From Patescibacteria group bacterium (GTDB taxonomy: Bacteria; Patescibacteriota; Patescibacteriia; 2-12-FULL-60-25): 47,913 bases of DNA. A program made the translations under genes and the position numbers. Under the pieces are notes generated by a model that made no database searches, was not told where the DNA came from, and was given only the letters and a program-made list of their open reading frames with translations. Location: the NCBI GenBank assembly GCA_029210915.1, contig JARGGJ010000011.1:1-47913 (forward strand). The letters are read 5' to 3'. The stretch's first letter is position 1. Every line of letters starts with the position of its first letter. Positions 305 to 6,250 of this stretch are shown one piece after another.

Positions 305-1024
305 CTAAACAGAAGGATTCTTTATCTGCCCATGCACCGTTAAATAACTCGCAACAATTGCCGCAGTTTCCGCACGGAGTGTAAGCGGACCGAGCTCCGC
401 GATTAAAAAGTTGGCTTTTTTTGCTTCATTCACTTCCTCATCATCCCAACCACCCTCCGGCCCAATCCAAATACCTATCTTCTTTTTAAAACCTTGTGGT
501 ATACCATCACCTTTTTCCGTAACATGAAAAAACAAATTAACCAAATTATCTTTAGCGTGATCCATAGCGGTGTGCCATTTCATTGGTTCGTGAATCAAAG
601 GTATAAAACCTCGGCCCGATTGTTCGGCCGCTTCTTTAGTGATCAAACGAATTCTATCTATCTTTAAATCTTGCTTAATTGTTCTGGTTGACAATAAAGG
701 TATTATCTCCCTTACGCCAACTTCTGTTGCTTTTTGCACTACCAAATCAAACAATTCCTTTTTGATTATCGAGCAGTACAAAACAATCTCTCTTTCGGGT
801 TCATTTTGTAACTCTGTAACTCTGTCTAGGGTAACAGAAACCATCTTTTTATCGATAGACAAAATAGAGGCCAACGCCTCCCTCCCTTTACCATCGCAAA
901 TTACGATTTTCTGCCCAGGTTGCATCCTTAAAACCTTTGATAATTGATGCACCACAGCCTCATCCGTTATATCCATTTCCGGCGCAAACACATCATAATC
1001 ACCAATAAAACGATTTAATCTCAT
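305..1024 (-). CDS. rsmE: 16S rRNA (uracil-1498-N3)-methyltransferase RsmE
   Basis: RsmE methylates N3 of U1498 in 16S rRNA, using SAM, on the assembled 30S subunit. The protein is about 239 residues, normal for the family. It begins MRLNRFIG, as family members do, with a PUA-like N-terminal part (VLRMQPGQKIVICDGKG) and a C-terminal SPOUT knot. The SAM-binding motifs are clear: IGPEGGWDDEEV and, 18 residues on, ELGPLTLRAETAA. I prefer the second of two adjacent ATGs (1024 rather than 1030): a minus-strand TAGTAT at 1039-1034 would be a -10 box nine bases before it. That fits a leaderless transcript and repeats the spacing seen at other core genes. There is no Shine-Dalgarno site. The gene is isolated, with a non-coding structured region upstream. 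Confidence 0.93.
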   Translation of the reverse strand: MRLNRFIGDYDVFAPEMDITDEAVVHQLSKVLRMQPGQKIVICDGKGREALASILSIDKKMVSVTLDRVTELQNEPEREIVLYCSIIKKELFDLVVQKATEVGVREIIPLLSTRTIKQDLKIDRIRLITKEAAEQSGRGFIPLIHEPMKWHTAMDHAKDNLVNLFFHVTEKGDGIPQGFKKKIGIWIGPEGGWDDEEVNEAKKANFLIAELGPLTLRAETAAIVASYLTVHGQIKNPSV

Positions 1025-1033
1025 AAACATATG

Positions 1034-1229: not shown

Positions 1230-1239
1230 AGCAAAAAAA

Positions 1240-1551
1240 ATACGGGCCATCGAGCGCCCTAAGATTTGAAAAAATTTGTGGCGAGATGGCCCGAGAGGTC
1301 GGGACGCTGGTCGAGATCGTAAGTGGTGTAATCAGCAAAGCTGATTTATAGAGAAAGAGCGCACCGCTCACAATGGAGACACTTGCGTGTATCCTAACCT
1401 TTATGTGAACCGCTGGTTCATCCCAACCCTAGCAGGGACTCCGAAACCCGTAAAAGAGTTTCATATGATGGAGTTTGCTCGCTGTGCGTGACAAGCCGAT
1501 AAGCTTGAATGGATCAAGCGCACTGGCTTGCCACGCGTTTTTTTAGTTTTG
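1240..1551 (+). ncRNA. candidate structured non-coding RNA A, ending in an intrinsic terminator
   Basis: No gene is open here, but the plus strand folds in many well-formed local hairpins: CCCGA-gagg-TCGGG (1290-1303), AATCAGC-aaa-GCTGATT (about 1331-1347), a GGAGACAC/GTGTATCC hairpin near 1373-1392, TGAACC-gct-GGTTCA (about 1404-1418) and GAAAC/GTTTC near 1443-1461. A long stem, GCGTGACAAGCC with GGCTTGCCACGC, is followed directly by seven Ts (about 1541-1547), which reads as a rho-independent terminator and sets the strand. GGGCCATC at 1244-1251 could close the 5' end with GATGGCCC at 1285-1292. I could not match it to RNase P RNA, tmRNA, 6S or SRP RNA: their hallmark sequences are absent, apart from a short AGAGCGCACCGC that also occurs in RNase P RNA. 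Class unknown. Confidence 0.45.
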
Positions 1552-1562
1552 TTTTTTGATTT

Positions 1563-1795
1563 CTGTGTGCCTGGTCGAATGACCGGGCGGGGTCGAGATA
1601 ATCCATGTGATGGATGTCCATAAGAACAGGTCATGGAAACCCATCTTTTGAAAGCGGTTTAGAAAGTACTATGAGGTGAGCTGGCAATTTTGCCACCAGC
1701 AGACAGCCATGAGCGCGTCTGCTTGTGCCTTGTACGACACAAAAGAAAACTTACACTCTAGTTTTAAGAGTGTTATACACAAAGGAACGTAATAA
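1563..1795 (+). ncRNA. candidate structured non-coding RNA B, next to RNA A
   Basis: A second gene-free segment is packed with hairpins: GCCTGGTC-gaat-GACCGGGC (1569-1588), ATCCAT-gtg-ATGGAT (about 1601-1615), ATGG-aaac-CCAT, a GCTGG/CCAGC hairpin with inner GGCA/TGCC, AGCAGAC/GTCTGCT (about 1698-1725), TGTG/CACA and ACACTCT/AGAGTGT (about 1753-1774). As in RNA A, the first strong hairpin is followed by the string GGTCGAGAT, so the two may be related modules or parts of one longer RNA. No clear terminator follows, so strand and ends are tentative. Nothing in it matches an RNA family I can name. Confidence 0.35.
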
Positions 1796-1908
1796 AAATC
1801 TAAAGAGCAATTTGTACTATTATTATACCCCAAAAAAGACACTTTATCAAGGGTAAAAAACCCTCAATAAACATAAGAAAAACGCATTAAAATAACTTAC
1901 ACACAATA

Positions 1909-1929
1909 TGTGGATAATTAATATCCACA
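1909..1929. promoter_or_regulatory. palindromic pair of DnaA-box-like sites
   Basis: TGTGGATAA (1909-1917) is an exact inverse of the consensus DnaA box TTATCCACA. It is followed after three bases by ATATCCACA (1921-1929), one base off, in the opposite orientation. The pair sits at the stop codon of the membrane protein gene. It might bind DnaA as a titration site, or be chance in AT-rich DNA. Confidence 0.3.
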
Positions 1930-3090
1930 AGCGGTTAAATAACCGCCTTCATTTATCAAAATAATGTTATCAAAATCAAAATAACAAATGTCAATCCATG
2001 AACAGAAATTCTTAATGCTTTGCTGGTTAAATCCGGCAATCACTTCTCCATCACATTTATTGCTATCAACCTCATATCCTGTCAATCCACTAACAAAATT
2101 CGATACACTTATCAAACCCTGTTGCGTTTCTGGAATATTTAAACCCGTGCTCGAAGCATTAGACCCTGTAGCGATAGTTAAACCGGGATTAACATACAAT
2201 CTTTCCGCAATATAGCCATCGGGTAACTCAAATTTCTTAGAGATGGTTGACTCCTTATCCTCCAAAGACCCTAAATATCTTTTTTGCTTATTATCAGCTT
2301 CATAATCTAAAGCAACCAATAAAGGATCATGTCTCCAAGTTAGCATACCCGGCTCAGTAAATTGAGCCCATGATTGATGATAACGTAAAAAATTCATCAA
2401 AAATTGCGAATCCCCATCTTCCAGTTGCAAAAAACCACTTGCTTCAACCAGTTTTTTTGTTGGTTCACTGACACTTTTTTGTATAGGTAACGTAGTTTTC
2501 CATTTATTCCCAATTACTATGCCATCTATTTTACTTGGTAACTCATCCAAACTCAATTCGCCATAAGAAAACAAGCCTCTTACGTTTATATCTAATTTCA
2601 TTTGCCCATTAAACATCTCCCAAGGCCAACCAAAAACATCAAAAGGCGACTTGTAAGCATCTATCTCAAGTATTTGCTCTGATGATAAATCCCACAGCTT
2701 GGTTTTGCCAATAATCGCAGTCGCCGGAGACAACCTAATGGCATAACCCAAATTACCATCTTGATGGTTTTTATTTGATTCTGATGATTTAGCCAAACCC
2801 GCAACGGTTGGAAAAGGATTATTCAATGCCTGTGCTTGCTTCCAAACCAATGGAGCGTTTGTATTCAAAGATGTTTCTGCGGGCAAGATTGTAAAAACCA
2901 GTGTATTTTTTGGCACTGGTATTTTTGTAAAAAACCAAAACCAACTAAAAATAAATACAAATAACAACACAAAAATCCCCGCTGCCAAAGCGAGGAATTT
3001 TGGCCAAGCGCTTCCGCGGTTCGCCGTACCGTAAGATAAAATTGGCGAACCGCGAAATGCCGCGTCACGAATAAATGGATCTGGGCTCAC
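1918..3090 (-). CDS. single-pass membrane protein of unknown function, coupled to pnp
   Basis: The 390-residue product has a short cytoplasmic N-terminus, one strong membrane segment at about residues 30-53 (FLALAAGIFVLLFVFIFSWF) and a large presumably extracytoplasmic part with no motif I recognise. It starts at GTG, and the pnp stop overlaps this start (GTGA), so the two genes are almost certainly co-transcribed and translationally coupled. It has three Cys near the C-terminus (NKCDGE, NFCSW, DICYFDF). The 3' end overlaps a TGTGGATAA/TATCCACA palindrome. The partnership with pnp looks like operon organisation rather than proof of an RNA role. Confidence 0.75.
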   Translation of the reverse strand: MSPDPFIRDAAFRGSPILSYGTANRGSAWPKFLALAAGIFVLLFVFIFSWFWFFTKIPVPKNTLVFTILPAETSLNTNAPLVWKQAQALNNPFPTVAGLAKSSESNKNHQDGNLGYAIRLSPATAIIGKTKLWDLSSEQILEIDAYKSPFDVFGWPWEMFNGQMKLDINVRGLFSYGELSLDELPSKIDGIVIGNKWKTTLPIQKSVSEPTKKLVEASGFLQLEDGDSQFLMNFLRYHQSWAQFTEPGMLTWRHDPLLVALDYEADNKQKRYLGSLEDKESTISKKFELPDGYIAERLYVNPGLTIATGSNASSTGLNIPETQQGLISVSNFVSGLTGYEVDSNKCDGEVIAGFNQQSIKNFCSWIDICYFDFDNIILINEGGYLTACGY

Positions 3091-5417
3091 AGATTAATAG
3101 CGAAGGGGTCATCAGAAACCGGCTTTGGTTTCATCGGACCTTTATCAAATGATGGTCGCGGACCTCGATCATGCGGTCTATCATTACCATGGGGCCTGCC
3201 TCCAAAAGATGGTCCACCATTTCCCGGGCGTGGCGGCCTGGGGCCTCTATCATTCGGACGGCCTCCACCATTACCACTTTCCGGCTTATAATCCGGGTTG
3301 GCACGCTTAACTGATAAATTCAAACGGCCCATGGCGTCGATTTCGTAAACTTTAACTTTTACCTCGTCTCCAACATTAACAACGTCTGTAACTTTACCAA
3401 CTCTAAATGGAGCTAATTCGCTTACATGCACCATTCCTTCTTTACCGGGTAATATCTCTACAAAAGCTCCAAAATCCATAATTCTGGTTACTTTTCCATC
3501 AAATATTTCGCCGACTTCAACTTCGCGCGTTAAATCCAAAATCATCTTTTTAGCTTTTTCCATGCCTTCGGCAGATACCGAGGTTATGTAAACCGATCCA
3601 TCATCTTCTATATCAATTTCAACTCCGGTTTGCGCAATGATTTCATTAATCATCTTTCCACCCGGACCAATAACCTCACGAATCTGCTCCGGATTAATAT
3701 GCATTGTGTCAATGCGAGGAGCGTATTGCGACAATTCAGCTCTGGGCTCTGCCAAATTAGCTTGCACAACATCCAAAATCTGCATCCTGGCTATACGTGC
3801 TTTTTCAAAAGCTTCTTTAACAACTTCAAGCGGTAAGCCTTGTGTTTTGGTATCCATTTGTATGGCGGTAATGCCTTCGCGAGTTCCCGCAACTTTAAAA
3901 TCCATGCCTCCGTCACCATCTTCCAAATCCTGAATATCGGTAATAACTTTCCATTTATTTTCTTTCTCGCGCGAGGCTACACCAATTGCGATGCCCGCAA
4001 CCGGAGCTTTAATCGGAACACCGGCGTCCATCAAAGCCAAAGACGATGCTGTTGCCGAGCCCATGGAAGAAGAACCGTTAGATCCCAACACTTCGGAAAC
4101 CACACGAATAGTATAAGGAAAATCGTCCTTTGATGGTAAAACCGGAATAATGGCTTTTTCAGCCAAACTACCATGACCAATTTCCCTGCGTCCCGGCCCA
4201 CGATTGCCTTTTGTCTCAGATACTGCAAAAGATGGAAAATTATAATGATGAAAAAATCTGCGCGTGGTTTTAAATTCCATTGTATCTATATGCTGTTCCA
4301 TGCCCGGGCCTCCCAAAGTTACCAAAGATAATACTTGTGTTTGCCCGCGCATAAACAAACCCGAGCCATGCGTACGTGGTAATAAACCCGTATCTGCATA
4401 TAGAGCGCGAATCTCATCTATAGCTCTGCCGTCCGCTCTTTTTGATTGATCTAAAATCAAACTTGTAACCGCGTCATCAACAAACTCTTCGATAATTTCC
4501 ATGGCGACCTTACGGCGGTCTTTACCAATCTCTTGCGCTATAAGCGATGCCTCCAAACCTTCTTTCATTTTATTAACCGCACTCTTGCGATCTTTTTTAG
4601 TTTTGAGTGGCTCTGCAAATAACTCTTCCTTATGTTCGGTTAAATATGCCTTGGCAATTTGATGCAATTCATCTGCCTCTTTTGCGGATGCAATCTCTTC
4701 TTCGGTTTTCGGAGTAAAAGGATCAACTTTTTCTTTGCCATGTGCTTGCGCAACCGTATTTATAAGCTCTATAACCGGAGCAAAATTATCCTGAGCAAAA
4801 GCGATAGCTCCATATGCATGTTCCTCGGATACAATATTAGCACCCGCTTCAAGCATCACCGTTTTTCCATTAGCGCCGGCAACGGTAACCTCCATTTCAC
4901 CTTCCGCAATCTGCTCATAAGTTGCATTCAATATATACTCGCCATTTGTTTTGCCGATACGAGCCGCCGCAATAGGGCCGTTCCAAGGAATTTCCGATAA
5001 CATCAAAGCACACGATGACCCGATTAAACCGATAACATCAGCATCATTCTCACCATCGTGGCTTAAAACGGTTGTTACAACCGCAACTTCATTACGCATT
5101 CTGTCGTCAAACAAAGGGCGCAAAGCGCGGTCTATCATCCTGCCCGATAAAACAGCCTCATCGGTTGGCCTGCCTTCGCGTTTAATGTACCTGGAACCCT
5201 TTATTTTACCGGCTGCATAAAATTTCTCCTCAAAATCAACCTGCAAAGGAAAAAAATCCAATCCATCTCGAATTCCTCCCATGGTTGCTGTACACAAAAC
5301 AACTGTGTCGCCATAACGCACAGTACACGAACCTCCCGCCTGTTGAGCCAAAAGCTCTACACCGATAGTAAGAGCCCTTCCGCCCCACTCTATCGAATAC
5401 TCTTTTTCATTTTTCAT
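3087..5417 (-). CDS. pnp: polyribonucleotide nucleotidyltransferase (PNPase)
   Basis: PNPase is a trimeric 3'-to-5' phosphorolytic exoribonuclease that degrades mRNA using phosphate and can add tails. All domains are present in order: RNase PH 1 from about residue 10 (RYGDTVVLCTATMG), the helical linker, RNase PH 2 from about 320 (catalytic-core stretch HHYNFPSFAVSETKGNRGPGRREIGHG and GSNGSSSMGSATASSLALMDAG), a KH domain (INPEQIREVIGPGGKMI) and an S1 domain (GEIFDGKVTRIMDFGAFVE). A Gly/Pro/Arg-rich tail of about 60 residues follows, longer than in E. coli, and may add RNA affinity. I take ATG 5417 (MKNEKEYSIEW); an in-frame GTG at 5441 lies within a repeat. The downstream membrane gene overlaps its stop. 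rpsO, the usual upstream neighbour, is absent. Confidence 0.97.
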   Translation of the reverse strand: MKNEKEYSIEWGGRALTIGVELLAQQAGGSCTVRYGDTVVLCTATMGGIRDGLDFFPLQVDFEEKFYAAGKIKGSRYIKREGRPTDEAVLSGRMIDRALRPLFDDRMRNEVAVVTTVLSHDGENDADVIGLIGSSCALMLSEIPWNGPIAAARIGKTNGEYILNATYEQIAEGEMEVTVAGANGKTVMLEAGANIVSEEHAYGAIAFAQDNFAPVIELINTVAQAHGKEKVDPFTPKTEEEIASAKEADELHQIAKAYLTEHKEELFAEPLKTKKDRKSAVNKMKEGLEASLIAQEIGKDRRKVAMEIIEEFVDDAVTSLILDQSKRADGRAIDEIRALYADTGLLPRTHGSGLFMRGQTQVLSLVTLGGPGMEQHIDTMEFKTTRRFFHHYNFPSFAVSETKGNRGPGRREIGHGSLAEKAIIPVLPSKDDFPYTIRVVSEVLGSNGSSSMGSATASSLALMDAGVPIKAPVAGIAIGVASREKENKWKVITDIQDLEDGDGGMDFKVAGTREGITAIQMDTKTQGLPLEVVKEAFEKARIARMQILDVVQANLAEPRAELSQYAPRIDTMHINPEQIREVIGPGGKMINEIIAQTGVEIDIEDDGSVYITSVSAEGMEKAKKMILDLTREVEVGEIFDGKVTRIMDFGAFVEILPGKEGMVHVSELAPFRVGKVTDVVNVGDEVKVKVYEIDAMGRLNLSVKRANPDYKPESGNGGGRPNDRGPRPPRPGNGGPSFGGRPHGNDRPHDRGPRPSFDKGPMKPKPVSDDPFAINL

Positions 5418-6250
5418 AAACAAACTTTTTCCTCGTCCCACGTCACACGTCCCAATCGTCCCACGTCACAAAATTACTTCGACGTTAGACATTAGACGTT
5501 AGACATTAGACACTTTTAGTTGTTTGTCCCGAAACTCAATCCCGCGCCGCGTGGATCCATGTCTCAGGACAAACTTAATTTAATTATATTTTCGTTTATA
5601 ACGTTCGTAACGTTCATCACGAGTTAAGTAGTTCAAGAGATAACCATTCCCTCATCATTAACTCGTTATAAACATTTTAACGTTATAAACGTATTACCAT
5701 TTAATTGTTCGGCGCAACTCAATAATGGCAGAATTAAGCCAAAATGTCAAAACAGACCTTGATTAACAGGATTTGCATGATTTACCAGGATTTAAATTAA
5801 GGAAATAATTTTTATATATTAAAATGCCGGAAGCTACCGACATTGTTTTTTGTAATTTATTATTTATTATTTCCGACCCTCGTAGTCCTGAGTTTATCGA
5901 AGGGCGAAGTGGGTTATTATTTGTAAATTAATTGATACCGCTCGTTTTATTATTTGTTATTCCTGACCCTCGTAGCTTCCTGACCCTCGTAGCTTCCTGA
6001 CCCTCGTAGCTTTAGCGTAGTGGGTTAGCGTAGTGGGTTAGCGTAGTGGGTTAGCGAAGTGGGTTGTAATTTGTTATTTAATAAGTTCCGCTCGCTTTAT
6101 TATTTGTTATTTATTATTTGTTATTTATTTTAGCTTATAAAGTAAAAAGTTTTTAAAGTTCATAAAGCCAACCAACCCAATAACCACTTTACAAACTTTA
6201 TGAACTTTATAAACTGAATTTATTATTATTTATTATTTGTAATTTGTTAT
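5418..6250. repeat. gene-free spacer filled with word-type repeats
   Basis: No coding frame is credible here. From right to left in pnp's upstream direction it holds a CGTCCCACGTCACACGTCCC array (5433-5468), which has a close relative at 45849; a GACGTTAGACATTAGAC stutter (about 5480-5512); an inverted array of TTATAACGTT-type words (about 5585-5700); a TTGATTAACAGGATTTGC element (about 5758-5800); tandem GACCCTCGTAGCTTCCT words opposed to AGCGTAGTGGGTT words (about 5874-6066); TTATTATTTGTTATT runs; and a GTTCATAAAG/CTTTATGAAC inverted array (about 6130-6220). Each array is a pair of arms made from repeats of a 9-17 base word. Confidence 0.7.

Follow-up and report, generated by a model that had tools for sequence, protein, structure and literature searches.

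The window, i.e. the whole stretch of DNA that was analysed, comprised the entire contig C2 (47.9 kb) of a Patescibacteria genome (G000) with a size of 1.46 Mb and a completeness of 98%. Between rsmE and the genes p390 and pnp it contained a block that, like these three genes, was read on the minus strand, with pnp and p390 on its upstream side. The features of the locus are as follows.

305-1030, minus strand: rsmE
about 1233-1815, minus strand: RNA gene of ~583 nt, with its ends inferred, 5' from the promoter and 3' from the U-run
1233-1240, minus strand: terminal run of eight U, as read in the sequence
1243-1294, minus strand: 3' terminal stem with an inner GCCAC...GGG motif, compensatory change in 9 of 12 pairs
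1407-1677, minus strand: conserved core, covered by the covariance models R2 (202 bits) and R3 (159 bits)
1415-1429, minus strand: 3' strand of helix P3, GGGUUGGGAUGAACC, from the covariation test of the core
1538-1567, minus strand: A-rich single-stranded linker, CACAGAAAUCAAAAAACAAAACUAAAAAAA, conserved in family f1; most class members whose sequence upstream of dksA was read have a recognisable form of it
1590-1605, minus strand: 5' strand of P3, the long-range core helix, 12 of 15 pairs compensatory; holds the complement of the second GGTCGAGAT
1609-1645, minus strand: hairpin P2, GAUGGG...CCAUC, compensatory change in 11 of 14 pairs
1653-1658, minus strand: 5' strand of helix P1, ACCGCU, pairing with AGCGGU at 1409-1414; 3 of 4 modelled pairs covary
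1773-1781: DnaA box TTATACACA, inside the 5' end of the RNA
1822-1827, minus strand: -10 element TATAAT of a near-consensus sigma70 promoter, TTGATA-17-TATAAT
1845-1850, minus strand: -35 element TTGATA; the promoter has 11 of 12 consensus matches and a 17-nt spacer
1909-1917: DnaA box TTATCCACA, upstream of the promoter
1918-3090, minus strand: p390
3087-5441, minus strand: pnp

A sequence-only reading of this DNA had described the block as gene-free between rsmE and the pnp operon, and our analysis agreed with this description. Open reading frames inside the block encoded for only 43-57 aa, and a protein-coding gene was ruled out by a comparison of G000 with G008, in which 10 of 11 gaps were a single base long and codon periodicity was missing. 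Neither a tRNA, a tmRNA nor any Rfam family was detected in the block on either strand (ARAGORN, cmscan). A template of a diversity-generating element or another kind of repeat was rejected as a second copy was absent from the genome. Just past the terminator of the RNA we observed an inverted repeat (1107-1229) with arms of 27 bp that were 93% complementary and separated by 69 nt (fold z -6.4). It was not found in G008 and no further copy was present in the genome; the repeat may represent a second terminator or the remnant of a small mobile element. The neighbouring p390 showed an apparent N-terminal membrane segment and in many families separated pnp from the RNA, with poor sequence conservation (13-24% identity) and no Pfam match.

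A DNA search of relatives recovered the block in several genomes of the same genus, and their alignment showed near-identical blocks with indels between them. At the right-hand edge, all six aligned genomes had a sigma70 promoter on the minus strand, its elements 17 nt apart, and this layout and spacing were constant in all g1 and g14 relatives. In nearly all relatives the terminal stem was followed by a U-run or a U-rich stretch, and the RNA ranged in length from about 490 to 610 nt. The fold of the 583-nt minus-strand RNA reached -208.9 kcal/mol (z -13.3), and the minus-strand folds of relatives had z values of -5.0 to -10.9. On the plus strand the fold was weaker by energy in five of six genomes, with z values in the window of -5.9 for 1240-1545 and -1.9 for 1540-1800; the impression of the sequence-only reading that the block is rich in hairpins was thereby borne out, with more folding than expected by chance. 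Covarying pairs, when read on the minus strand, contained 119 G-U versus 44 A-C cells. We assigned the RNA to the minus strand because of the conserved promoter and terminator, the stronger minus-strand fold in five of six genomes, and this excess of G-U over A-C cells. The interval of 1240-1795 proposed before was correct in that the RNA is located there, but the gene extends slightly beyond it on both sides.

Comparative evidence for the structure was obtained from a 40-pair core in 27 sequences. In this alignment, which was made with the covariance model and therefore leans to it (the model served to fit alignments A6 and A7), 33 of the 40 pairs showed compensatory changes and 89.8% of cells were paired. 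Core covariation amounted to 0.463; shuffling gave 0.205, with none of 500 shuffles reaching the observed score, and sliding gave no more than 0.119, so that the suggestion of the sequence-only reading to check homologues for covariation yielded a positive answer. The long helix was also recovered by free folding of an earlier alignment with RNAalifold, in which 19 of 40 pairs showed compensation. The string GGTCGAGAT had been noted twice, and it does occur at 1309 and 1591, a recurrence equalled in one of 100 shuffles of the window. Conservation was limited to the copy at 1591, which forms one strand of the long core helix, and did not extend to the copy at 1309. Among the best conserved parts of the RNA was the A-rich linker, which is enclosed by the long-range helix, and C-G and U-G pairs of the core were invariant in 27/27 sequences. 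These invariant pairs together with the conserved linker suggest a defined binding site. The RNA of the window combined all features by which the proposed family is defined, namely a covarying P1-P3 core around the A-rich linker, a covarying 3' stem with U-run, and a sigma70 promoter. We conclude that the block almost certainly represents a real and independent, single-copy gene for a structured RNA. The view that it is a lineage-specific structured RNA absent from Rfam gains strong support from its homologues and covariation as well as from promoter and terminator.

The distribution of the RNA was followed with three successive covariance models. Model R1 reached all four genomes of the sister genus g14 and was discarded as too narrow, covering two genera only. 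Model R2, built on 11 sequences, extended to many more genera of the family, which consists of Ca. Uhrbacteria and relatives; the carriers of the motif with a name included Candidatus Uhrbacteria and other Patescibacteria. With model R3 the RNA was found in 34 of 41 family genomes, mostly metagenome assemblies, with one copy each, and in 35 of 41 when a copy cut by the contig end on L012 is included. The other six genomes gave no match with R3, for which assembly gaps, divergence or loss may account. Across families the gene order pnp, p390, RNA, dksA, lspA, comM was conserved. Downstream of the RNA, dksA is replaced by rsmE in G000, G007 and G008, while dksA and lspA are located there in most other families. 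In several genomes dksA had a promoter-like site of its own between the terminator of the RNA and the dksA start.

Beyond the family, R3 matched six members of f40 with E-values, rough because of a short calibration, of 1e-9 to 4e-7; the three top-ranking members had 1e-9 to 2e-9. Weaker matches were found in f15, f46, f6 and one genome of another class. Weak R2 matches outside the family were mostly partial and were treated as chance, and one R3 match (L182, G305:C10:47136-47221) without the conserved gene order probably arose by chance in A-rich DNA. The flanks of the R3-found loci outside the family showed the order pnp, a protein of ~380-490 aa with an apparent N-terminal membrane segment, the RNA, a DksA/TraR zinc-finger protein (PF01258), lspA and comM, where lspA, comM and the membrane segment were identified by visual inspection of the sequence. 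In contrast to this order, the genome from another class encoded for recA and another gene upstream of the RNA and for dksA, lspA and comM downstream. In a search starting from DksA in 33 distant genomes, the RNA was judged present upstream of dksA in 17 genomes from 15 families, based on promoter, A-rich linker and terminal stem and partly by eye. For the most distant families, recognition relied partly on synteny and motifs, with modest R3 scores of 17-30 bits. A scripted test for a helix of the form S1-ACU-S2 / S2'-GGU-S1' around the linker was passed in 13 distant genomes from nine families (shuffle p <=0.04) and failed in others, partly since the script required exact motifs. The distant loci kept the ACU/GGU core helix around the A-rich linker with changed flanking pairs. 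The genomes examined from f2, f11, f12, f14 and f21, and most genomes of other classes, lacked the RNA upstream of dksA. Judged from these loci, the RNA would occupy the same position in about 15-20 families of the class.

Comparison with known RNA families did not yield a relative. Rfam 15 (4227 families) gave only chance-level matches in the block at E up to 10, and only chance-level matches and flanking tRNA in 37 homologous loci (20 searched at gathering thresholds, 34 at E up to 1); the sole gathering-level match in the 34 loci was a flanking tRNA in L201. The covariance-model check proposed along with the sequence-only reading therefore left the RNA without a family. RNase P RNA, its first suspect, was rejected, with no covariance match of class A (RF00010) at the locus and a candidate elsewhere in the genome (G000:C1:25306-25774, 90.5 bits, below the gathering score). 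RNase P RNA class A shares with our RNA the size range and the string AGAGCGCACCGC on the plus strand, which is however the wrong strand. tmRNA (RF00023) was rejected likewise, since the block contained neither a tRNA-like domain nor a covariance match (ARAGORN, cmscan) and the tmRNA of the genome is located at G000:C10:20097-20485. For 6S RNA (RF00013) and for small SRP RNA (RF00169) with its Ffh-binding hairpin, searched with one model each, no match was obtained at the locus, in the homologous loci or anywhere in G000, and both identities were rejected because of the missing matches at the locus and its homologues. 6S RNA is a rod of about 180 nt; our RNA forms no such rod, and 6S RNA could serve only as a possible analogue in role, as an RNA tied to growth state. 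No covariance match to OLE, GOLLD or ROOL was detected in the block or the homologous loci. OLE RNA (Ornate Large Extremophilic), 577 nt long in C. acetobutylicum (PMC12286853), resembles the RNA described here as a large single structured RNA of poorly understood function, but differs in lineage and gene neighbours. GOLLD and ROOL are likewise large ornate RNAs with elaborate secondary structure and have their genes in phages and prophages, in many cases close to tRNA islands (PMC12286853), whereas the Patescibacteria RNA is encoded by a chromosomal single-copy gene in synteny with pnp/dksA and matches them neither in sequence nor in structure. Full-text literature searches revealed no published description of the RNA. 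As far as such comparisons reach, the RNA represents a new family and, loosely speaking, one more large bacterial ncRNA.

The surroundings of the promoter pointed to DnaA. The motif TTATNCACA was present within 350 nt upstream in 34 of 38 RNA loci, compared to two of 268 background windows of the same loci. The simplest reading of the boxes, to which we would give an even chance, is that DnaA might control the promoter of the RNA; a titration site for DnaA is a further possible reading of the motifs. The RNA locus as a replication origin was rejected, as the GC skew switches away from the RNA in G041 (~760-800 kb vs 677 kb for the RNA), G204 (~210 kb vs 395 kb) and G001 (110 kb vs 88 kb). Separately, we observed five DnaA boxes in 10 kb at the GC-skew switch of G204 (C1, ~210-220 kb, L249-L245 region), a cluster that likely represents the replication origin of this single-contig Paceibacteria genome.

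Taken as a whole, the locus is in our view quite probably explained best by an independent RNA gene that would act in trans as a component of a ribonucleoprotein under the influence of DnaA. Transcription of the RNA would be strong and influenced by DnaA, and a protein or a part of the expression machinery would dock on the A-rich linker and on the 3' stem. This would make it a housekeeping or growth-state RNA with a role comparable to 6S or OLE RNA and not a switch for the adjacent gene. A role in trans was inferred because the downstream gene is exchangeable, with rsmE in place of dksA in three genomes, and because in several genomes dksA is preceded by a separate promoter-like site; for the trans-acting, protein-bound role taken by itself we lean towards acceptance on these sequence features.

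A cis-acting leader or attenuator of the downstream gene (mostly dksA/lspA, here rsmE), with the 3' stem as a regulated terminator, would agree with the co-orientation of the RNA with dksA, upstream of which it lies in many families, and with its intrinsic terminator. We consider this unlikely, since the RNA was kept in the genomes with rsmE downstream, promoter-like sites follow its terminator in several genomes, conservation of the terminal stem is strong, and an unsystematic look revealed no antiterminator pairing as an alternative. Still less credit can be given to an extremely diverged housekeeping RNA (SRP, 6S or RNase P RNA). Diverged RNase P RNAs have been reported in CPR (PMC8172020), and the missing RF00169 and RF00013 matches in G000 would leave room for such an RNA; however, RNase P RNA and tmRNA are encoded elsewhere in the same genome, Rfam matches at the locus and its homologues did not rise above chance level or flanking tRNA, and the core contains the long-range helix P3, with no SRP GGAA-loop motif spotted and nothing resembling the rod of 6S RNA.

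The enrichment of DnaA boxes at the RNA loci, which by GC skew are not origins, would also be expected if the locus worked as DNA, with the boxes titrating or reactivating DnaA (like datA/DARS) and the transcript being incidental. The covariation in 27 sequences and the G-U asymmetry, on the other hand, require selection on RNA and render this explanation very improbable. Hardly any credence remains for two RNAs on the plus strand, as the sequence-only reading had it. The plus strand does fold into hairpins as well, but it is the minus strand that carries the only conserved promoter close to consensus, and there we found one RNA instead of two; the G-U excess likewise favours the minus strand. 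The stem with seven Ts at 1537-1544 that had been taken for a plus-strand terminator turned out to be the complement of the A-rich linker (GAAAUCAAAAAACAAAAC).

To our knowledge, few stand-alone structured RNAs are conserved across an entire bacterial class. The RNA described here is positioned with the regularity of a housekeeping gene among the ultra-small Patescibacteria, a major branch of uncultured life, and its covariance model provides a ready expression test as well as a marker for annotation. We suggest only tentatively that this large ncRNA might be ancestral to much of the class, be controlled by DnaA and couple the cell cycle to the gene-expression machinery via a protein bound to the linker. 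With the DnaA boxes there is a concrete starting point for studying how the cell cycle or transcription is controlled in Patescibacteria.
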